A stretch of DNA of 47,984 nucleotides from Methanosphaera stadtmanae. Its GTDB lineage: Archaea; Methanobacteriota; Methanobacteria; Methanobacteriales; Methanobacteriaceae. Made by a program: the position numbers and the translations under genes. Location: the NCBI GenBank assembly GCA_015062825.1, contig SUTR01000015.1, positions 1 through 47,984 of the forward strand, in the 5' to 3' direction. Shown in pieces: positions 1 to 24,667 of the stretch. Each line of letters begins with the position of its first letter. The stretch's first letter is position 1. The notes below the pieces were generated by a model. The model ran no database searches and was not told the origin of the DNA. It saw only the letters and a list, made by a program, of their open reading frames with translations.

Positions 1-3000
1 TTCATTAAAGACTGCTTTAATTACTAATGTACTATTATCTGTTGGAGTGTAGCTTACAACAACTTTACCACTAGCATTCGTTAGTGGAACATTGCTAATT
101 GCCACATCATTAACTGTTATAACAACAGCTTTACCACCAATAGCATTAGTGTTATCAGTATTGTTGTTTAAGGTTACTTCTATGTCAAATGGAACATTTA
201 CACTAGCATTTTGAGGTACTGTTAGTGTTATTGTGGTGTTCATTTTATTTACAACATAACCCGTCGTGCCATCATCACCTATGATTGTGTTGTTTACACC
301 TTCATAGACTGCTCTTACTGTATATTCACCTTTAGCTAAATCATCAATAACATATGAATATTCACCAGTACTGTTTGTAAGTACAATTGCCTCAAAGGTA
401 TTGTTGATGTATAGTTTTACTACTGCATCAGTTATATCTTTGTTTTGTCCATCCACTAATTTACCTGTGATGTTTACACTTTCTGAAGCATATAATGATG
501 ACTTGTTCACATCTACTGTGATTGTAGATTCAGATAAGGCAATATTATTTACTGTACCTGTAGCACTAACAGGATAATAGTAATCATCACCAGCAAATGT
601 TGCTCTTATTACAAGAGTGCTGTTGTTTTGTGGAGTGTAACTTACAACAATTTTACCATCATTATCAGTAAATGGAACTGATCTGATTGGTACATCATTA
701 ACTGTTATAACAACAACTTTACCACTAATAGCATTATCATTATCTGTATCGTTGGATAGAGTTACTTCAATGTCAAATGGTACGAATACTTCTACAGTTC
801 TAGGTACTGATAAATCTAGCGTTGTTGGCATTTTTTCTACACTATAAGCTGTTGTGTCTTCATCACCAATAATTGCATTGGCTACTCCATCATATACTGC
901 TCTTACTGTGTATTCACCTTCTCTTAAGTTAGATACTACATATGAATATTCACCACTAGCGTTGGTTGTGACTGTGGTTGCTATGTTACCATTTATGTAA
1001 ATGGTTACTTCTGCACCGACAAGGTTATTTCCTTGACCATCAACTACTTTACCACTAATGTTTACACTTTCTGAAGCATATAAATCTGATTTGTTAACAT
1101 TTGCAGTTACCACAGATTGTGATAGTGCTACATCAACAACAGTTGTGTTTTCACTAGCAAGGTATACTTCACTGCCTCCATAAACTGCCTTAATTTCTAA
1201 GGCTGTATTATTATGAGGTGTGTATGTTATATTTGTTTTACCATCAGCACCAGTTACACCTACACCTGTAAGTTCCACACCATTTACAGTTATTTTAACT
1301 ACTTTACCACTGATTGGATCATTGGTATTGTTGGTTAATGTTACTTCAATTGTAAATGTTTTATTAACTTCAACATCAGTTATTGGAGTAATTGTGATAC
1401 TTGTAGGTATTTTATTTACTGTTAATTCTATTGTTTGACTTGTTACCACAACTTCATCGTCTTTAATAAATGAAGCGTTAATTAGTATTGTTCCATTATA
1501 TTCTGGTATGTAGTCAATGTAATAGGTTCCAGTATTTGAATCAAAGGTAGCTGTGTAATCTGTACCATTGATTGATACTTTTATATTTGCATCTGCTTTG
1601 TAAGCTTGACCTGTTTGGTTATAAAGTATTCCACTTACTCTTACAGATTCTCCTACAAATACTGCTGTTTTATTTAGATCTATTGTAATTTCTGGATCTA
1701 CCGTTACTGTAATGACTGTAGTGTTTTCTTTGCCTACAGGTGCATTTAATCCAGTAGCGTTGCTTGGTAAGTATTTGTCATTTCCTTGATATGTGACGTT
1801 GACTTCTATGTCTCCAGGTTCTGTTACATCAGTCAGTGTAATGTTAACTTTACCATTTGTTAAGTCTCCTTCTCCTAATATTGTACCATCGGTAGCATTG
1901 AATACTATTACATGACCTGTTGGAATTAGGTCTTTTGTATCATTTGTTACATTGATTGCCAATGTGACATTTGATGATTTGTTTGATAGTATCTTTTCAA
2001 TATTAGTTGTACTTGGAGCTTTTTGTATATCAATTACTATTACATCCTTATCTAATGCGAATGCTGATTCGTTTCTTGCATTGCTTTCAAGGTACTTATC
2101 AGTTCCACTGTATGATACTAGAAGTTTAATGGTTTCTGCTGTGTCATAATTGAGTTTGTACTCAATATTTCCACCAGGGACATATAGATATGATGTGTAA
2201 TTTCCACTTATGAAATCATATACATATACAAGTCCTTCTGTTGCAAATTCTTCAGGATTTCTAGCATCAGTTACATTGAATCTTATGGTTACATTACCAT
2301 AAGTGTTGTTAAGGATTGTTACATTTGTAATTGTAGGTATCTTGTTTACAACATAATCCACTTGTGTGCTGGTTAGTTCATTTACTGTGTCATTGCCATG
2401 ATATGTGGCGTTAACTGTAAATGTACCGTTAGCAGTTGCCTGTATACTTGCCGTGAAATTACCGTCAATGACTTCTATTAAGTCTTTGGATATAGCCACA
2501 TTGTTGATGTAGATATCCACGTCGTCAATATCGGTGATTTGATTGCCCATTCCATCGGTTATGTTTACATTAATCGTTACGTATTCATCGACGAATAACT
2601 CCCTTGGGTCAACGTCGATACTGATAGCAGCATCCTGTTTTTCAACAGATATTTCTACTGTAGCAGAGCTTTCAAGATACTTATCGTTTTCGTTGTATGT
2701 AACTTTGACATTTAATGTTTCAATATCCTCTGAGGGGATTGTTATATTCACTTTACCGTTTGTCAGGTTTTTAAGTGTTATAGGTGTTCCATCAGCAAAT
2801 TCCACAGTTACGTTACCCATGTCAACAAGTTGACCTGTCTCATTTGTAACCGTGACTTCTATTGTTACATTTGCGATACTCTTATTTACAACTTCAATAC
2901 TTGTTATCGTTGGCATTTGAATGACGTCTTGGTCTTCAATCACAGTTGAACTTTCAGTGTAGTTTTTGTTTCCAAGGTATTCTACAACTATGTCATACTC

Positions 3001-6000
3001 TCCAATTTCTTGAATGTCTGTGACGATTGTTGCATTACCGTTTTTGATGTATCCTACACCTACAATTTCATCGTTGACTTTGACCAGTACAGCTCCTGAG
3101 GTTACAGGTGCTTCCGTCTCTTTATCAGTTACCGTTACGTTTAAAGTAACGTTTCCGATTGTGTTGTTTATTACGGTTGCACTTGTCTGGCTTGGTCTTT
3201 GTTCAACTATTACTCTTAGGGTTGTGTTTGTGCCATTGTATGTATCGTTACCTGGATAGGTTATGATTAAATCATTTACTCCCACAGGTATGTCAACAGC
3301 TATGTCCACAATTCCCTGTGAATTAGTTTTGCCTGTTAGGTTTGTACCATTTGGTAATGTGATGATTACATCTGCATCTGGTAAAGCTGCATTTGTTTCA
3401 TCATCAGTAAGGTTTACGCGGATACTTGTATTTCCAAGCGTTGTGTTTGTAGCGTTTGCAGTTATGTCTGCTAGACGTCCTACTATTTCAACGTTTGTTA
3501 GATTTTCCTTGGTTGCCATGTCGTCATCTGTACTACTTTCTAAGTAGTAATCATTTCCTTCATAGCTAACAACAAAGGTGTAATATCCTTTTTCTGTGAT
3601 ATTTGTTACTATTGTTACATGTCCATCTTCACTGTTGAATGTGACATTTGCAACATCACTGCCGTTTGCCTTAACTGATACGGTACCGTTGGTTACTGCT
3701 TGGCCGGTTACAGCATCGGTAATATATGCTTCAAGTGTTACGTTGAGTGCTACATTGTCAGCAACATTAGCTGTAATTGAGCTGTTACGTTTGTCTAATG
3801 TGACTTCATAGTCAACAGAGTTTTCATTGAATGTATCTGATCCCGTGTATTTTATAACAAGGTTATAAGTGTCCGGTTTATCAAGGTATCCTTCAATGAT
3901 ATTGACTGTTGCTTCACCATTTTCCACATCAGCCTGTCCGATGAGTGTTTGACCATCATCAAGATATATTTCAACTGTTCCATTGTTTACGTTTTCTTCA
4001 AATAGACAGTCAACGTCAACTTTTATTGAAACATTGCCTGCTGTTTTGTTTACAGCATCAGGTGTTAATGAAACATCAAGTTTAAGTACTTCTAGTGGTC
4101 CTACTGTTTGGTTTGCAAAGTATGTGGTTGTTCCACCATATGTTACAATGATTGTGTAATTTTTGGATACATCAACATCATGTAACTGTATGATTGCCTT
4201 GCCATCCACAACATTTCCACGTCCAAGTTCTATTCCTCTCTGTAGGGTATCGGTCATGTTGTATATGATTACTTCACCCTCACTGATGATGTTTGTTGGG
4301 TTTTCCAAGTCTTCAACGTTTACTTCAAGTGTTGTATTGTATACAGTATTGTTTAGTACTGTGTATGTTACCTTATCATCTAACCTGATGATATAGAAGT
4401 TAATACTTTCAGTTACTCTGTTATATTCTACTGTATCATTTGTAAATATACCTGTCAGGTATACATGCTCTTCTCTACCACTAGAGTAGTTGTACAGTCC
4501 AACTCCATCTTTAACAGGAACTAATGCTAGAACATGACCTTCTTCATCAAAGATTGTGAATGTACCGTTTACCGGAGTTCCACTTGCATCATTAATAGTG
4601 AATGTCAGGAGGTTGTTCTGATATATTCTTACTGTCCTGTTAGCATAGACCCAGTCACTGTATGTTAGTATTTTATCATCAAATACTTTCTTAAAGTCAT
4701 AGCTTATGTAACGATCACTTCCAAAGTATTCAAATCCTATGGTAAAGTTATCATGGGAGAATTCTTTTCTGAAGTTAAATTCGAAGTTACCTGTAGCATT
4801 TGTTCTGTAGGTTCTAGTTTCACTGGTGCCGTTCTGATAGAATATCGTGATGTTAACATCTTCATTTGGAATTGTTATATTATTACCGTTTTTGTCTTTA
4901 TAGAAGAGTAATCCGATAAATTCAACAAATCTTTCCGTATGATATTCTGTTTGATTGAAGATACGACCTAATGTTGCAATCTTACTAACTTCTAATATTG
5001 AGTTATTGCTTGCAGTGTTGTATTCAACATCCATACGTCCATCAAATGTTGCCGTTATATTATAAACGAATTCACTTGTTGGTTGCCATATGATTGATCC
5101 TTCACCGTTTTCATCAAGATGTACTACTTCTGAATATACGAATTCATTATAATCATCGACGTTTGTGATTGTTATTGTAACATCCTTGTTTGGAATAATA
5201 TCTCCATATTGATCTTTGAGTACAACTGATATAGTTACATTGTCTTCTGGTGCCACATTTAATGTAGTTCTATCATCACTTAGAGTTAATTCAACTGTAG
5301 TATTGGTTTTATCCAACTTTACAATTGTCTGAGTGATTGCCTCATTATATAAGTCATTTTCGACATATTTAAGAGTTACAGTTGTTGATTCTTCCAATTC
5401 ATCAATAGGAATTAATACAACACCGTTTTCAACATCATATTCAACATCTGTTGAATCTACTGTGAATATTAATTTTCCACTTGGTATCTTTGATGAATTT
5501 CTGTCATCAACTTTAACCAGTAATACACGCTTATTATCAGAGGTAATCTCTTCGATTGGTGTAAGTACTACATCGTGTTTGACAGCAGTTAATGTTAGAT
5601 TTTCACTGGTTACAGGGTTTGTCACATTGCTTATACCGTTGAATGTGGCATTGATTAAATATGTACCAGGTAATTTTGCCTGATAGTCATATGAATAACC
5701 ACTCTGATTAAGATCTAAGGTGAATTCTTCATCATTTACCCTTATTGTAACTGTTCCTTCCGTAATTTCACTACCGTCAACATCAATTACATGACCACTG
5801 ATTGTTGTGGTTTTATCAAATGGGATTTCACTTTCACTTAGAGCAATGTCAATTGTCACATTTTTATTCTGTACATCAATTATCATTATCTCTTCGTTAG
5901 GAAGTCCTGGTATGCTGCTGTTTTTAGCATTGCTTGATTCATACAAATCATTTTCATTGTATGTTACAACAATCTGCATTTGACCTGATCTTGCTGCTGG

Positions 6001-16065: not shown

Positions 16066-16122
16066 CAGTAGAAAAAAAAGGAATATGTAGATTGAAGTAT
16101 TGTTATACTTCAACTTCTACAT
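16066..16122 (-). terminator. Hairpin plus T-run terminator of ALP2
   Basis: TTGAAGTAT (16092-16100) and ATACTTCAA (16105-16113) form a perfect 9-bp stem with a TGTT loop that overlaps the stop codon at 16103-16105. An outer GTAG/CTAC pairing with a small bulge extends it. On the minus strand a run of eight T follows about a dozen bases later, fitting intrinsic-like archaeal termination. Confidence 0.6.
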
Positions 16123-19100
16123 TAGAAGAATCCATCATGCCATCATGACCTGATGATCCTGATTTATCTATGGTATCACTGGATGTTGGTATATCACCTT
16201 TTGTATTGGATAATTCTATAGAATCAGGCACGCCATCTATATTATCATAGTCTATAGTTATAACACCTTCATTATTCCAATTGTTGAATTGTTCTATTGT
16301 TATTCCAGCCTGTTGCATTGCTGCAATAAAGTCACTGTAGGTCATGTTTCCAAAGAAGTATGACTTGTATAAGTATATGAATAAGCGATATTTTAATACA
16401 CATCCCCTGTATTGATATGAGCCATGTCTATTAATATTTCTAGTAAAATGCTTCATAGAAGCATATCTTTTGTTATAATGGTATTTGTTAAATCCTTTAA
16501 TTGAATAAGTTTTAATGTTATTCTTAATTATAGGTTTATTTAAACTGTTGACTGTACCATCATCGTTTGAGACATTTCCATTATAACATTCCGTGTAATT
16601 TATTAATTTCCATGCCCATATGAATTTTAGTGGTGTGTAATTTAGTGTATTTGTTATCTTCCATGTGTTCTGATTGTTTTCTAATGTCTTTGTATAGTTA
16701 GCTACTTCTATTTCATCGACTGTATAGTTTATGAGTTTACCTTTGTTGTATTTTAGTAAGTTATCAAATGAGTATGTCCAATTATTTTCATCATTTAATT
16801 TAGTTGTATTTGTTTTTTCCCCATCCATGTAAAGTACTATAGTTACATCAGCTGGTCTTATATTATGCTTATCATCCTCATCAAGCCATACTTTTGTCAC
16901 ATTGACATGAGTAGTTTCTATAACATGTGTGTTTGTAATTGTGAAATTGTTTGAACTACCATTTATTTCTTTGATGTATCCTGCTGTCATGTTTTCTTCA
17001 TCAACTTTGTAGATTATTTCTTTTTGATTATTATATCTTGGCAGATCTTCAAATGTATATGTCCATTTGTTATTGCAGGGTAATGTTATTGTATTTACAA
17101 TTAAATCATCTGCATATAATAGAATTGTAACATTATCTGGTCTTAGATTATCGTTGTTGTCTGAATCATTCCATATTTTTGTAACTGTTATGTTTATGAG
17201 TTCTTGTTTATGGGTGTTTGTGATTGTGTAGGTATTATTGTTTTGTGTTACTTGTTTTGTATAGTTTAGTGGTGTGTTTATTTCATCAACGGTATAGTTT
17301 ATTAGTTTTCCATTGTTGTATTTTGTAAGGTTGTTAAATGAGTATCCCCAATTGTTTTGTTGATTTAGTTTTACTGCTTGACCATATTTGATGCCATCAG
17401 CATATAATTGTATTGTGATTTCTTTTGGTCTTAGGCCATCGTTATTGTTTGAGTCATCCCAGACTTTTATCACGTTTATTTGTGTTGTTGTCTTGTTGTG
17501 TGTGTTTATTATTGTGTATTTATCATATGTTACCTGATATTCTTCAGGTAGGCTTACTTCCTGTACATAGTAGTCTATTACTTCTCCATTGTCATATTTT
17601 GTTAGGTTTTCATATGTGTATGTCCAGTTGTTTTCTATACATAGTATGATGGATTTTCTTATTGCTTCTCCATTTGCATATAGTTGAACTTCTATACGAT
17701 CTGGTCTTAGGTTATCGTTGTTGTCTGAATCATTCCATATTTTTGTGACTGTTATGTTTGTATATATAATTGTATGGTTGTTTGTTATTATGTATTGGTT
17801 GTTGCATCCGGTAATTGATTTATCATATCCTGTTGGAATATCTGATTCATCTATTGTATATATAATCTCCCGGGAGTTATTGTATTTGTCCAAGTTTGTA
17901 AATGTATATGTCCAGTTGTCTATTTGGGTTAATATGATAGTTTTTATTATGTTTGAATCTGCAAGCAGGTTAATTGTCACATTATCGGGTCTTAGTCTAT
18001 CATTGTCATCATCAATCCATACTTTAACTACTGTGATGTTTATCTTTTTAGTTATGTGTGTGTTGATTATCTGTGTCTGGTTATATTCTACTGTGTAGTT
18101 GTCTGGAACTATTTCTTTTACTGTGTAGTTGATTTCTTTTGTATTGTTGTATTTTAATAGGTTGTCAAATGTATATTTCCAGTTATTATCTTTAGTCATT
18201 ATTGCAGTATTAGTTATTTTTCCATCAGCCAGCAATAATACTGTTATGGATTCAGGTCTTAGGCCGTCATTGTTGTTGTCATCTATCCATACTTTTGTTA
18301 TATTTAAGCTTGTCAAATATTTTTGATGTGTATTGATGATCTTGAAGGTATCGTTACAGTATACTATTTTACTATTATAGTCGGTTATTGTATCTTCACT
18401 AATGCCATACGTGATTAATTCACCATTTTCATATAGGGGCAAATCTGTAAATGTGTATTTCCAATCATCATCAGCATGTATATTTATTGTCTTGATATTA
18501 TTTCCATTTGCAAATAGTTTAACTGTGACATTTTCTGGTCGGATGTTATCATTGTTGTCTGAGTCATTCCATTGTTTTGTTACTGTTATGTTTTTGGTTA
18601 ATGCTTCATGTGTATTTGTTATGGTCATATTCTCTATTGTAGCAGTATATCCTATTGGAATACTTATTTCTTCGATTGTATAAAGTATTTCTTTACCATT
18701 AGCATATTTTGTTAAATTTGTAAATGTGTATTTCCAGTTATCTTCTTTGGTTATTTGCTTTGTAATTATAGCTTTGGAATCTGCAAGGAGATTTATGGTA
18801 ATAAATGCCGGTCTTATACCATCATTGTCATCATTATCATCCCATAGTTTGGTTACTGTTAGATTAGTTACTTCTGGTATGTGTGTGTTAATGATTTTAA
18901 ATGTATTTGAGCTATTTTTAATTGTTACTTCATATTTATCTGATATACTTGATTCAGAAACGGTGCATATGATTTTTGTACCATTGTTGTATTTGGTTAG
19001 GCCTTTAAAGGTGTATGTCCAATTGTTTGATAAGTTAAGTAGTGCTGTTTGTATTTCTTTTCCATCAGCATATAGTGTGACTGTTACATTATCTGGTCTT

Positions 19101-22100
19101 AGGCCATCATTGTCAAGAGAGTCATTCCATTGTTTAGTTACGGTTATCATAGTTGCTTCTGGTATGTGTGTATTGGTTATTGTAGTATCATTTATGCTTG
19201 ATGTGTATCCTTTTGGAATGTTAATTTCCTGAATTGTATAGTTTACTTTTGTAGCGTTTATGTATTCGGGGAGATCTTTTACTGTGTATCTCCAGTTGTC
19301 TTTTGAATTTATTATAATAATAGTATGTCTTTGATTGTTTGCTAGTATTTCTACTGTTATGTTGTCTGGTCTTAGTCCATCATTATTGTTTGCATCATCC
19401 CATACTTTGCTAATGTTTAATTCAACTAGACTGTTTTCATGAGTATTTGTTATTATGAAGTTTCCACAGGGGGTTACTGTAATGTTACTTGTATAACCTG
19501 GAATTTCTACTTCACTTATTGTATAATTAATTAGTCTACCTTCATGATATTCTGTTAGATTGGTAAATGTATGTTTCCATTGATTATCATTTGTAATTGT
19601 TGCCTCTTGTATTTTGTTTCCATCAGCATATAAGTATACTGTAATGTTTTCTGGTCTTAGTCCATCGTTGTTGTTTGCATCATCCCATAGCTTGGTTACA
19701 TTTATTTGTTTAGTGTATGTTTCATGTGTGTTGGTTATGGTCATATTATCTGTTGATACATTATAACCAGGTGGTATTCCTGTTTCTTGGATAGTGTATG
19801 TTATCTGATTACCTTTTGAATATTTTAATAGGTTGTCAAATGTGTATTTCCATTCTGTATCCTTAGATAGTATTGCTGTAGTAAGTACTTTGCCATCTGC
19901 TAGTAAAGTTATTGTAATATTGTCTGGTCTTATGCCATCCTGATTATCTTTATCATCCCATATTTTTGTAACATTTAGTGATATGACTTCGGGTATGTGA
20001 GTGTTAGTGATAACTGTTGAATTTACTGTTGCTGTATAGTATGTGGGAACATCCGCCTCTTCAATAGTATATTTTATTTCTTTACCATCAACATATTTTG
20101 GAAGCCCAGTAAATGATCCTGTCCAGTTGTCTTTTTCTTTGATTGTAATTGTATCAATTACTTGATTTGAAACAAGCAGGTTAACCTCTATACTCTCCGG
20201 CCTTAGACCATCATTATTGTCATTATCCATCCATACTTTTGTAACGTTTATAGTGGTGTTTTCTGGTATGTGGGTGTTTATAATCTGTGTACCATTAATA
20301 GATGAGGTGTAACTGGTGGGAACATCTGTTTCTATGATTGTGTAATTAATTATTTTACCATTGTCATATTTTGGCAGATTATTTAATGTATATGTCCAGT
20401 TGTTTTGTTTGGATAATTTGATTATCTTGTATTCTTTGTCATCCCTATTTACTTGTACATATACATAATCGGGTCTTATTCCATCCTGATTATCAGAGTC
20501 ATTCCATACTTTTGTAATGTTTAGTGATGTTACGATAGGAGTGTTGGAAATTTCCAATAGGTAGTCATCAACATTGGCAACATGTTCATAATTTATTCCA
20601 ATTAATCTTTGATATCCATTATTGAATGGTTCATAGATGAAGAATTGATAGGTCATATTACCATCTTCAACATCAATGCAATCATATGGATTTACTATAT
20701 TGCCATTTTGAACGTTGTGATAAACGTCATTTATTATATTCTGACATTTTTGTGTAAGTCTCCATAATGAACTGGGATTATTATATCTGGCACCCCACTG
20801 AACATCTGGTCCTTGACCTAAAAATACATATAATGCTGTGTTGATTGTGTATGAATCATTATTGCCCTGATGATATAATAAATATCTTACATATGGCATT
20901 ACATTTTCTTGTGTATATCTATTGATTAGTTCATAGTTTCCATCATCTGTTAATCTTACATATGGCATGGTTGTGATGTTTGCTATATCTGAATCCCATA
21001 CTGTATAGTTGATTTTATAAAGAGGATTTCCTGTTATGTTAAAGGATACTAGATTACTTGATGGATCAGGCAGTGTATAATTCATACAGTAGGCTATTGT
21101 ATTATCATCCATTAGCCATGGATGGATACCCTGCATGCTCCATGTATGTATTATATCATTAGTGTCATATGTGGAGTTACATTGCTGGTAGATTTCATTT
21201 TCTTCATATTGTATAGATACATTGAAGCTGTCTAGGGGTAATGAAAATATTAATTCATCATCATCCATTGTGAATGATTTATTGTATAATTCCTGACCAT
21301 TTATATCTTGGATTATTAATTTACCCATTGATACTGGATTATTGCTTAGATTTGTTACATATACTTTGAATATTGAGTTGTATGTGTTGTTTTCATATGT
21401 GACATTATATGAATCTACATGAATTACAGTTGGTATTTTAGAGTTTTTCTCAATATGAGTCATATTATATGATGCATTATGATTTTCAGGAACTATTTCC
21501 GTGAATGTGTAGTTAACGGTTTTTCCATCTATATACTTTGGTAATCCTGTCACGTGATAAGTCCAATTATTTGAGTTGTTTAATATGATTGTTTGATCAT
21601 ATAGTATGGATGCATCATCCATATTGGCATATATTTCTATTGTCACATTACTTGGACGTATACCTTCTATGTTATCATCATCATTCCATGTTTTATGAAT
21701 TGTTAGATTCATTTTATGTAGATATGATGCATTTATTGTATAATCATATGGATTATTGTCAATTAATGAATAACTATAATAATCTGGCAGGGATATTTCA
21801 TCAATGCTATAATTTATTAAATTTCCATTATCTTCATATTTAAGAAGAGAATATTCCATGTCATTCCATCCACTTGTTTGTCTATATTGAAAGAAATATA
21901 CCTCCACACCCATCTGGTCTGTCCAATAAAATGGCTTGCCATTTGCATATAATTTTGCATATACTATGTTGGGCCTTAGGCCATCTTGATTGTCCATGTC
22001 ATTCCAGATGATATTGGATGTTACATTTATATAGATTGAATTTATTGCATAGATATTTGTAGTAAATCCGGTTTCTGAAGATTGGTCATTAATTAGTGAT

Positions 22101-23032
22101 GTATAAGTGTTTGTAAAATGATAATCATCTATATCGGTTATTTTCTTAATTGTATATGTGTATGTGGCTAGATTGGTTAGATTTATTCTTGGTAGATTTC
22201 TGATTTTGTAATTCCAGTTATTGCTTTCATCCAGAGTCACTGTCTGAAGTAGTATGTTATTACGGTATATGCCTACTTCTAATGTGGAGGGTCTTTTGTT
22301 TTCAGCATTGTTTCCATCATGCCATATGGCTGTTATGTTTAAATCGGTTGTTTGGTTGATGAACTTATTTGATAATAAAAATGAATGTTCTGTAATCTTT
22401 GTAGGTGTGTCATCTATTACTTGTATGTATTCTGTTGTTGTCTTTGTTATTGTTATATTATACCAATCGGATAAGCTTCCTGAAGATGTTATTCTTCCAT
22501 TCTTATTTAAGTATTTTATGTAAGCTTCTACATCATAGTTATATTCATTTCCATTTAGATCATATTTGTCTAAAATAGCATAATCTTGCCAATTTTCATC
22601 ATCTGTAAGTGTGAAGAGTCCTAATATTATATCATTTTGATATAGTTTTACTGAGTATTTGGTTAAATTATCAGATAATCCATCACTATCATCAGTATTA
22701 TCCCATTGAGTATTTATGATTATTTTTGTTGCTTCTGGTAGGTTTTCTTCCTGTTTGAGTGTTGTTATATTATTTTTTGTTATATTTTTTAAGTTATTTT
22801 CATTTGTTTTATTTTCTAAATTATTGTTTAGGTTTTTATCCTCCCTATTTATATTTGATTCTATGTTTATATTTTTTATATTCACATCATCCTTTTGGCT
22901 GGTTATGGATGATGGACTATTATAATCTGCTTTTTTCATGCTACTTGTATCATTAGCTGATACTGCTGATACTGTCAATAATAGTATTGATATGAACATG
23001 ATAAATGCGAGAGAATGCTTTTTATTCATCAT
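16103..23032 (-). CDS. ALP2: secreted Cna-B repeat adhesin with a putative thioester domain
   Basis: 2309 residues. The start at 23032 has an AAGGTG ribosome site nine bases upstream of the tandem ATGATG. Residues 1-26 are a signal peptide; 27-95 are an Asn/Lys-rich linker. Four Cna-B-like repeats follow at about 97-535. Residues about 640-815 resemble a thioester domain: YCMN with Cys649, INTALY at 730-735 in the place of the TQxxPhiPhi motif, and YQRLI with Gln808. Then come 14 Cna-B repeats of about 85-90 residues (V-T-K-x-W-D-D...RP...Y-x-x-G...Y-x-x-x-E...ITNTH), all keeping Lys, Glu and Asn for an isopeptide bond. The last ~165 residues are unlike the rest: a Lys/Arg/His/Tyr-rich stretch, a small helical-looking part (MTYSDFIAAMQQAG) and an acidic tail. 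No C-terminal membrane helix or LPXTG signal is visible, so attachment is unclear. The likely role is a stiff fibrillar surface adhesin; the target is unknown. Confidence 0.93.
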   Translation of the reverse strand: MMNKKHSLAFIMFISILLLTVSAVSANDTSSMKKADYNSPSSITSQKDDVNIKNINIESNINREDKNLNNNLENKTNENNLKNITKNNITTLKQEENLPEATKIIINTQWDNTDDSDGLSDNLTKYSVKLYQNDIILGLFTLTDDENWQDYAILDKYDLNGNEYNYDVEAYIKYLNKNGRITSSGSLSDWYNITITKTTTEYIQVIDDTPTKITEHSFLLSNKFINQTTDLNITAIWHDGNNAENKRPSTLEVGIYRNNILLQTVTLDESNNWNYKIRNLPRINLTNLATYTYTIKKITDIDDYHFTNTYTSLINDQSSETGFTTNIYAINSIYINVTSNIIWNDMDNQDGLRPNIVYAKLYANGKPFYWTDQMGVEVYFFQYRQTSGWNDMEYSLLKYEDNGNLINYSIDEISLPDYYSYSLIDNNPYDYTINASYLHKMNLTIHKTWNDDDNIEGIRPSNVTIEIYANMDDASILYDQTIILNNSNNWTYHVTGLPKYIDGKTVNYTFTEIVPENHNASYNMTHIEKNSKIPTVIHVDSYNVTYENNTYNSIFKVYVTNLSNNPVSMGKLIIQDINGQELYNKSFTMDDDELIFSLPLDSFNVSIQYEENEIYQQCNSTYDTNDIIHTWSMQGIHPWLMDDNTIAYCMNYTLPDPSSNLVSFNITGNPLYKINYTVWDSDIANITTMPYVRLTDDGNYELINRYTQENVMPYVRYLLYHQGNNDSYTINTALYVFLGQGPDVQWGARYNNPSSLWRLTQKCQNIINDVYHNVQNGNIVNPYDCIDVEDGNMTYQFFIYEPFNNGYQRLIGINYEHVANVDDYLLEISNTPIVTSLNITKVWNDSDNQDGIRPDYVYVQVNRDDKEYKIIKLSKQNNWTYTLNNLPKYDNGKIINYTIIETDVPTSYTSSINGTQIINTHIPENTTINVTKVWMDNDNNDGLRPESIEVNLLVSNQVIDTITIKEKDNWTGSFTGLPKYVDGKEIKYTIEEADVPTYYTATVNSTVITNTHIPEVISLNVTKIWDDKDNQDGIRPDNITITLLADGKVLTTAILSKDTEWKYTFDNLLKYSKGNQITYTIQETGIPPGYNVSTDNMTITNTHETYTKQINVTKLWDDANNNDGLRPENITVYLYADGNKIQEATITNDNQWKHTFTNLTEYHEGRLINYTISEVEIPGYTSNITVTPCGNFIITNTHENSLVELNISKVWDDANNNDGLRPDNITVEILANNQRHTIIIINSKDNWRYTVKDLPEYINATKVNYTIQEINIPKGYTSSINDTTITNTHIPEATMITVTKQWNDSLDNDGLRPDNVTVTLYADGKEIQTALLNLSNNWTYTFKGLTKYNNGTKIICTVSESSISDKYEVTIKNSSNTFKIINTHIPEVTNLTVTKLWDDNDDNDGIRPAFITINLLADSKAIITKQITKEDNWKYTFTNLTKYANGKEILYTIEEISIPIGYTATIENMTITNTHEALTKNITVTKQWNDSDNNDNIRPENVTVKLFANGNNIKTINIHADDDWKYTFTDLPLYENGELITYGISEDTITDYNSKIVYCNDTFKIINTHQKYLTSLNITKVWIDDNNNDGLRPESITVLLLADGKITNTAIMTKDNNWKYTFDNLLKYNNTKEINYTVKEIVPDNYTVEYNQTQIINTHITKKINITVVKVWIDDDNDRLRPDNVTINLLADSNIIKTIILTQIDNWTYTFTNLDKYNNSREIIYTIDESDIPTGYDKSITGCNNQYIITNNHTIIYTNITVTKIWNDSDNNDNLRPDRIEVQLYANGEAIRKSIILCIENNWTYTYENLTKYDNGEVIDYYVQEVSLPEEYQVTYDKYTIINTHNKTTTQINVIKVWDDSNNNDGLRPKEITIQLYADGIKYGQAVKLNQQNNWGYSFNNLTKYNNGKLINYTVDEINTPLNYTKQVTQNNNTYTITNTHKQELINITVTKIWNDSDNNDNLRPDNVTILLYADDLIVNTITLPCNNKWTYTFEDLPRYNNQKEIIYKVDEENMTAGYIKEINGSSNNFTITNTHVIETTHVNVTKVWLDEDDKHNIRPADVTIVLYMDGEKTNTTKLNDENNWTYSFDNLLKYNKGKLINYTVDEIEVANYTKTLENNQNTWKITNTLNYTPLKFIWAWKLINYTECYNGNVSNDDGTVNSLNKPIIKNNIKTYSIKGFNKYHYNKRYASMKHFTRNINRHGSYQYRGCVLKYRLFIYLYKSYFFGNMTYSDFIAAMQQAGITIEQFNNWNNEGVITIDYDNIDGVPDSIELSNTKGDIPTSSDTIDKSGSSGHDGMMDSSNVEVEV
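16645..20537 (-). repeat. 14 tandem Cna-B-type repeats in ALP2 with complete isopeptide triads
   Basis: Fourteen consecutive units of about 255-280 bp. In each one I can see the first-strand Lys (x-x-K-x-W), the Glu of the Y-x-x-x-E strand and the Asn of the final I-x-N-T-H strand (ITNNH in the tenth and ITNTL in the last). In known Cna-B domains these three residues form a Lys-Asn isopeptide bond with Glu as catalyst. Neighbouring units are diverged at the DNA level, so this is an old array rather than a fresh expansion. Confidence 0.85.
20588..21115 (-). other. Putative thioester domain (TED/TQXA-like) coding segment of ALP2
   Basis: Residues about 640-815. Three landmarks of Gram-positive thioester domains occur in the right order: a Tyr-Cys-hydrophobic-Asn motif (Cys649), a T-I-N-T-A-L-Y-V-F strand (TQxAIW-like but Asn731 where Gln is usual) and F-x-Y-E-P...Y-Q-R-L-I-G with Gln808. 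The Cys-Gln spacing of 159 residues is close to that in streptococcal examples as I recall them. The bond itself is a prediction. Confidence 0.6.
21430..22745 (-). repeat. Four N-terminal Cna-B-like repeats of ALP2, three lacking the isopeptide lysine
   Basis: Units begin at NTQWDN, TAIWHD, NIIWND and HKTWND. They keep the W-D/N-D and RP framework, but the Lys two residues before Trp is replaced in the first three (T, A, I). Only the fourth keeps Lys and Glu. They lie on the N-terminal side of the putative thioester domain. Confidence 0.6.
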
Positions 23033-23593: not shown

Positions 23594-24667
23594 ATGAAAC
23601 TTGAAAGAAAAATACTAATAGAAAATCAAAAAATTATAAATGAAATAGCAATTGATAAAAATTTATCCAAAAGCACTATTTCTTCATATAAATCAACCCT
23701 GAAAGAATATTGTATGTTTAATAAAATGTCGATTGATGAATTGTTAAAGGAAGCAGAATATGAAGAAGAAAAAGGTATAATACTAAAAAAACGAAACATC
23801 AAAAATAGAATAAATTCCTATAAAATATATTTAATAAAACAAAAAAATCAACCTCTTACAATAAACACTAAGCTTGCTAAAGTAAAATCATTATATAACT
23901 TTTATGATATAGAAATACCCAATATAAGATTGTTAAAAAAAACAAATCATGAAACCATAAATGATTTACCCTCAAAGAAAGACATATTGCTTGTACTTCA
24001 AAATACTAATGATATTCGATTCAAGACAATAATCCTGTTTTTATTAAGCAGTGGTAATTCATTGAATGAAACATTAAATATTACCCTGGATGATTTCATT
24101 AAAGCTACAAAAGATTATCATAATGAAAATACATTAGGATCTTGTTTAGAAAAATTAGACAAAATAGACGTGATAATTCCAACATTTTCCTTATATAGAC
24201 AAAAAACGAATTATCCCTACATATCATTCTGTAGTCATGAAGCTACCAAATATTTGATTTTTTATTTAAAAATCAGATTATCACATGACAAGAATATTCA
24301 ATTAACAGATAAACTCTTTAACATCAAATACAATACACTTCAAGCCCAATTTCGTAGAATAAATGACAGACTGAATTTTGGATATGTTGGTCAATACAGA
24401 TTTTTCCATGCACATAGTTTACGCAAATATTTTGCTACAAATCTTCTTAAGGCAGATCTTGATCCCATGATTATTGATTTCTTATCAGGACGAAGCATCA
24501 GCAAAGTTCATGAGGCATACTTTAAAGCAGATCCTCAGAAACTTAAAGAAAAATATATTTCAATAGTTAATTATTTAGTAATCAATGATAATTATCTAAT
24601 AGAAGAAAAAAAATCCAAGAATGAATTTGATTCACCTTACATGTCCCAAAAAGAATATTTTACATAG
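23594..24667 (+). CDS. Tyrosine recombinase / phage-type integrase with atypical active site
   Basis: 357 residues, typical integrase length. Residues about 15-110 look like the helical core-binding (SAM-like) domain and 125-330 like the catalytic domain. The second catalytic block is clear: H274-S-L-R277 followed by KYFATNLL, then F-L-S-G-R-S and V-H-E-A-Y309-F with the presumptive nucleophile Tyr309. Lys204 in a YRQKTNYPYI strand could be the beta-hairpin lysine. Two positions are unusual. The TGLRxxE box reads S-S-G-N-S-L-N-E (152-159), so Ser156 stands where the first catalytic Arg is expected. Arg300 stands where His of LGHSS is usual, as in some archaeal integrases. It is a lone gene with no phage or plasmid genes nearby, between two giant ALP regions and flanked by a pair of inverted sites (15307-15340 and 25348-25379). 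DNA inversion is one possible role; a domesticated or decaying integrase is another. Confidence 0.85.
   Translation: MKLERKILIENQKIINEIAIDKNLSKSTISSYKSTLKEYCMFNKMSIDELLKEAEYEEEKGIILKKRNIKNRINSYKIYLIKQKNQPLTINTKLAKVKSLYNFYDIEIPNIRLLKKTNHETINDLPSKKDILLVLQNTNDIRFKTIILFLLSSGNSLNETLNITLDDFIKATKDYHNENTLGSCLEKLDKIDVIIPTFSLYRQKTNYPYISFCSHEATKYLIFYLKIRLSHDKNIQLTDKLFNIKYNTLQAQFRRINDRLNFGYVGQYRFFHAHSLRKYFATNLLKADLDPMIIDFLSGRSISKVHEAYFKADPQKLKEKYISIVNYLVINDNYLIEEKKSKNEFDSPYMSQKEYFT

Follow-up and report, generated by a model that had tools for sequence, protein, structure and literature searches.

The stretch of DNA analysed here (the window: 47,984 nucleotides of the Methanosphaera stadtmanae contig SUTR01000015.1, from a gut-type methanogen) encodes a large adhesin-like protein, ALP2, that is probably an archaeal counterpart of the bacterial TIE adhesins: a surface rod of CnaB domains displaying an internal, amine-reactive thioester domain built on Cys649 and Gln808. 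The analysis found class I-like thioester-domain homology, co-conservation and co-loss of the Cys and the Gln, and complete isopeptide triads in the stalk. By analogy with bacterial thioester domains (TEDs), the protein would form a thioester and adhere covalently; the reactivity, target and adhesive role of its domain are predicted on the same grounds. Three approaches, in part independent of one another, support the homology itself: a held-out profile, a template-free structure model, and profile and profile-profile alignments. The open reading frame lies on the minus strand, from an ATG at 23032 to a stop at 16103, and its product of 2309 amino acids is laid out as follows:

16103..23032, minus strand: whole gene of the secreted adhesin-like protein including the stop, an open frame from ATG with a signal peptide MNKKHSLAFIMFISILLLTVSAVSA
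22952..23032, minus strand: predicted N-terminal signal peptide, residues 1-27 (from the sequence)
21413..22723, minus strand: four N-terminal CnaB-like repeats, residues ~104-540 (Pfam and repeat alignment)
21197..21412, minus strand: spacer, Ig-like by eye, residues ~541-612 (sequence comparison)
20567..21181, minus strand: thioester-type domain, residues ~618-822 (profile searches, AlphaFold2 model, Foldseek, hhalign)
21086..21088, minus strand: codon of Cys649, the predicted thioester Cys, in the YCMN motif (column conservation, bacterial alignment)
20822..20848, minus strand: middle helix motif TINTALYVF, residues 729-737 (family form xQxx[IVL]WxFT)
20609..20611, minus strand: codon of Gln808, the predicted thioester Gln, in the YQRLI motif (column conservation, joint loss with the Cys)
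16628..20530, minus strand: stalk of fourteen CnaB repeats, each with its Lys/Glu/Asn triad intact, residues ~835-2135 (Pfam, repeat alignment, PDB match)
16106..16399, minus strand: C-terminal module of ~98 amino acids, a candidate surface anchor (copies in other Methanosphaera adhesin-like proteins)

By sequence comparison, a spacer-type module also precedes the homologous thioester domains in genomes G006, G012 and G015.

The three landmarks of a TED described by the first-pass annotation are all present: Cys649 (in IAYCMN), TINTALYVF (729-737) and Gln808 (in YQRLI), with the claimed 159 residues (808-649) from Cys to Gln. The thioester-forming Cys of TEDs lies in a [YFL]C-hydrophobic-hydrophilic motif (PMC4450167), to which YCMN at 648-651 conforms, while YQRLI at 807-811 has the hydrophobic-Q-x-hydrophobic-hydrophobic form found near the end of the domain. 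Among the archaeal copies of the domain (n = 110), the Cys and the Gln columns are each conserved in 103 of 109 (94%). Both residues also occupy nearly invariant columns, of which an alignment of 86 sequences has five at a mean column identity of only 16%, and their position in such columns of so divergent an alignment takes the landmarks beyond chance. The middle motif of the window domain, INTALY, differs from the form common to most TEDs, TQxx-hydrophobic-W, which is not essential. At position 731 Gln is the commonest residue (46 of 110 archaeal copies) and the window copy has Asn, the change pointed out by the first-pass annotation; Tyr735 is divergent too, Trp being found there in 63 of the 110, and the Phe at 737 is shared by 101 of them, the window copy included. 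Since Gln is the most frequent residue in column 731 and Trp in column 735, the TQxx-hydrophobic-W motif emerges unprompted in the archaeal family. Mutagenesis of Cpa showed the Gln and Trp of the middle motif to be dispensable for the thioester bond (PMC4450167), and for this reason Asn731 does not disqualify the window domain.

The Cys and the Gln are also kept or lost together. In the 108 copies in which both columns are present, 101 have both residues, five have neither, one has only the Cys and one only the Gln. Of the 45 pairs that the conserved columns form, this one is the most strongly coupled (phi 0.82); its Fisher's p of 3e-7 takes no account of relatedness and serves as description only. 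The copies with neither residue require three separate losses, as the starred branches of the tree force them: in the first domain of the G006, G012 and G015 proteins, in one member of a tandem pair of domains in G001, and in a Methanobrevibacter-side copy in G144. The G001 and G015 proteins that contain a domain without Cys and Gln also carry an intact sister domain. Joint loss fits a single covalent bond made by two residues, as such a bond predicts it, and the copies that lack both provide built-in negative controls.

Two further readings of the window domain bear on these residues. It might be a structural remnant that has kept the TED fold and no longer forms the bond, in line with Asn731 and Tyr735 in place of the common Gln and Trp, with its long terminal branch (1.45 in the tree), and with other copies of the same genus that lack Cys and Gln altogether. 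However, the window copy keeps both bond-forming residues whereas degenerate copies lose both, and the substituted positions are those found not to be essential in Cpa, so we consider a remnant rather unlikely. Alternatively, no thioester would form at all, with Cys649 serving in a disulfide or in redox chemistry and Gln808 in a structural role. Further cysteines do occur in the window domain (618 and more), but only the one at 649 is conserved family-wide, its joint loss with the Gln in three lineages is not predicted by a disulfide, and both residues align to the thioester residues of bacterial domains, which together make this reading very improbable. A predicted thioester between Cys649 and Gln808 remains our preferred reading.

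A search with PF08341, the Pfam TED profile that the first-pass annotation had named as a check, went against it: the window domain was not matched even at E <= 10. It therefore lies below the curated cut-off of this profile (22 bits), a threshold that other archaeal members of its family exceed. The second Pfam profile, PF20610 (TED_2, curated cut-off 27 bits), gave nothing in the window genome; relatives reached up to 21.6 bits, and three archaeal copies were matched weakly (best 4.4e-4). An NCBIfam scan of the window domain returned no match. A direct search recovered relatives within the same genus, and in a scan of genome contigs the single window sequence gave no match and profile A4 seven loci. 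Profile A1 located the domain in 21 of 139 Methanobacteriaceae genomes and profile A2 in 64 of them, compared to 16 of 139 with PF08341 above its curated cut-off; many of the PF08341 loci coincide with A2 loci (e.g., G120:C333, G131:C37, G022:C3 and G135:C65). Viral contigs were scanned for the domain and yielded nothing.

Profile r1, built on 98 archaeal copies with the window domain held out, recovered the window at 3.1e-18 for the whole protein and 2.8e-20 for the domain. This result was obtained with the composition-bias filter of HMMER off; as the filter drops the window protein, default scans can miss the domain in such proteins. A profile of the 88 copies from outside the genus also reached the window domain (5e-10 at Z = 100000), and the two key residues, Cys and Gln, were aligned in register. 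A profile made from the PF08341-positive archaeal copies alone failed to do so (E 40) and, as there is no direct Pfam match either, the homology of the window domain to the Pfam TED is transitive, running through intermediates.

Several loci recovered in these searches deserve mention in their own right. The small proteins at L076, L077, L079-L081, L083 and L085-L090 (~270-350 amino acids, other Methanobacteriaceae) consist for the most part of a single thioester domain and are the ones best recognised by PF08341. The window genome has a second thioester-type domain (G000:C67:55040-55753), located in an ORF of 2606 amino acids and retaining Cys and Gln. Up to four such domains occur per protein: at L010 (G015:C15) an ORF starting at 3750 encodes a protein of ~4112 amino acids with four, the first without Cys and Gln and the second located at L010:5832-6482. 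In the homologous gene at L011 (G012:C112, ~3000-3070) a frame change falls inside the second thioester-type domain, reflecting either a mutation or an assembly error.

The link to bacterial domains was also found in alignments. Searched against PDB sequences, profile A3 gave 4c0z (Cpa) as its best match (E 9.3e-4), followed by 5a0g (CpTIE, 0.14) and 5dcq (SfbI, 2.2), with one unrelated match, also at 0.14. In the alignments to these three bacterial class I domains the archaeal Cys column falls on the YC motif and the Gln column on YQNLL or FQNLL; in 5a0g the paired residues are 129 apart, equal to the published Cys138-Gln267 (PMC4450167). With hhalign, A3 aligned to class I at 90.8% and E 1.2e-6, an E-value that is optimistic because the bacterial segments had been cut out with the same profile, while against the class II domain of pLS20 only the Cys motif aligned (probability 3%). 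The A1 profile aligned weakly to class I. The same small profile, when searched against PDB sequences, matched only glycogen synthases, which we regard as chance.

A template-free AlphaFold2 model based on the 86-sequence alignment reached a pLDDT of 82.2 and a pTM of 0.80, with low confidence in the loop after the Cys (residues ~675-680). Foldseek compared this model to 350,542 PDB chains, and ranks 1 to 12 were all bacterial class I thioester domains (probability 0.99-1.00), among them 4c0z (Cpa, E 1.5e-4), 5a0d (C. perfringens, 5.8e-4) and 5a0l (SfbI, 6.9e-4), before noise set in at rank 13 (E 0.65, probability 0.03). The model thus resembles a TED, with a bundle of helices set between beta regions, as had been anticipated, although the global match is loose, the TM-scores of the thioester-domain matches being 0.34-0.45 against a usual threshold of 0.5. 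An earlier model from 11 sequences (pLDDT 53) returned only Foldseek noise and was discarded, and the good model had no credible match in a library of viral structures; the Foldseek result is therefore not promiscuous. TM-scores below 0.5 and the failure of the Pfam thioester models to match the window domain are what an unrelated domain with three motifs resembling by chance would give. That explanation is hardly credible, as the twelve best PDB folds all belong to thioester domains and no other fold is a credible match, and held-out profiles and PDB sequence matches agree. Together with the Cys/Gln-paired alignment to bacterial domains, these results support the TED identity first proposed for the window domain.

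Among known TEDs, class I (Cpa 4c0z, SfbI 5a0l, CpTIE 5a0g/5a0d; PF08341) appears to be the closest: the predicted fold, the Cys in a YC motif, the Gln in a YQN or YQR motif and, in the archaeal family as a whole, the xQxx[IVL]W helix are alike, the window copy having Asn and Tyr in the latter. The class I domains have no beta-sandwich insert of ~75 residues and stand on an isopeptide stalk, as in the archaeal protein. The Cys-Gln spacing of 159 compares to 152 in SfbI, 153 in PnTIE and 129 in CpTIE. On the other hand, the window domain has an archaeal host, is too divergent for Pfam, has no LPXTG that we could see, and its model does not evidently contain helix alpha0, which precedes alpha1 in class I. 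Class II domains (BaTIE, SaTIE, EfmTIE86, pLS20 TIE; PF20610 in part) share the three motifs and the CnaB stalk, but a slipknot beta-sandwich is inserted in them after alpha3, ahead of the last strands; in the window model only ~8 residues separate the last helix from the next strand. Their spacing is wider (171-204), and they are absent among the Foldseek matches.

Pfam recognised 18 Cna_B stretches (PF05738, 1150 bits) and nothing else credible in the protein. The fourteen complete downstream triads claimed for it are all there: 14 of 14 repeats have the Lys in a KxW motif, the Glu, and the Asn in I/TNTH or an equivalent, which supports a predicted isopeptide-locked stalk. Three of the four upstream CnaB-like repeats are without the isopeptide Lys; the fourth has both the Lys and the Glu, its Asn being ambiguous. 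In the PDB the stalk repeats match the B repeats of the S. aureus collagen adhesin Cna (E 9.9e-77; 1d2o/1d2p), and with their Lys/Glu/Asn triads they are clear members of this family; whereas Cna has a collagen-binding A region, the window array, in an archaeal host, has a thioester domain in its place. At the C-terminus no LPXTG was seen. Instead there is a module of ~90-98 amino acids (YKLYIYLLYLEGKISYxDLVAIIG ... IPTTSDxIDTSNPDG..PVMDAGI), without a Pfam match or an evident membrane helix, that recurs in thioester-domain proteins of Methanosphaera as well as in further adhesin-like proteins: three more copies are found in the window genome (G000 C87, C130 and C67), and others at L024 and L040. 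The module may be a new surface anchor.

Bacterial TIE proteins combine a signal peptide, a TED near the N-terminus, an isopeptide stalk and LPXTG. The window protein shares the signal and the stalk by sequence, and it is TIE-like in its proposed working and not a TIE by definition, because its TED is internal (residues 618-822 of 2309) and no LPXTG was seen. In the proposed mechanism the protein would be secreted and then held at the cell surface, possibly via the shared C-terminal module, with its CnaB domains forming a long stiff rod locked by Lys-Asn isopeptide bonds. By homology, Cys649 would attack Gln808 with loss of ammonia, giving the internal thioester, and an amine (of a lysine or other) on a partner surface could then open it and end up joined to Gln808 through an isopeptide bond (PMC4450167). 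The partner surface might be that of a syntrophic bacterium, a protozoan, host mucus or another methanogen; hydrogen-producing bacteria and protozoa have been suggested as partners of methanogen adhesins (as cited in PMC12134236).

The position of the domain behind four repeats was correctly noted as unusual, as bacterial class I domains are single and placed at the N-terminal tip (PMC4450167) and the archaeal ones internal and often multiple. This placement, with up to four domains in the G015 protein, would suit a real thioester that bonds the methanogen's own surface (neighbouring adhesins, pseudomurein or sister cells) and so holds a fibre layer or aggregates together; self-crosslinking is conceivable for domains that are internal and repeated. 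A bacterial family member moreover works between cells in conjugation (PMC8092201). Against this, hydrogen-producing partners are reportedly bound by one adhesin-like protein of M. ruminantium (work cited in PMC12134236). Bonding to the own surface appears to be the less likely use, if a realistic one, than covalent attachment to a foreign partner.

Little is understood of the way methanogens attach to hydrogen-producing partners, protozoa or the gut wall, and few binding mechanisms have been assigned to their many adhesin-like proteins. A thioester head would provide a specific, amine-reactive covalent chemistry that would explain firm attachment in the flowing gut, and would extend to another domain of life a mechanism described by Walden et al. 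as occurring "exclusively in Gram-positive bacteria" (PMC4450167). A 2025 survey of isopeptide domains reported archaeal ones with few co-occurring domains detected (PMC12617251). Full-text searches of literature mostly without subscription journals gave no publication on thioester domains in archaea, and none of the papers located, PMC12617251 and PMC12134236 among them, reported such domains in adhesin-like proteins. As PF08341 already matches some methanogens, database users may have met traces of them. What is new here is a divergent archaeal form of a known thioester domain, widespread in related methanogens, by which archaea may stick covalently. ALP2 resembles the adhesin-like proteins of Methanobrevibacter and Methanosphaera, which are likewise large, secreted and repeat-built and come from methanogens that live with hosts. 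We lean slightly towards a broader view in which such methanogens use thioester adhesins to bond covalently to partner microbes or host surfaces. These adhesins would form a large family that is still diversifying, in which a single protein can have several reactive heads and inactive copies occur naturally, and covalent adhesion by this chemistry would then extend beyond Gram-positive bacteria.

The gene is flanked, ~560 bp upstream and on the opposite strand, by a tyrosine recombinase of the archaeal phage-type integrase kind (23594-24667, plus strand); no tRNA was found in the window. It is possible that the adhesin locus is mobile or phase-variable. Further adhesin-like proteins, of the Big_3_5 Ig-like and beta-helix types, are clustered on the contig at 28180-31014, 33919-38421 and 44122-46554.
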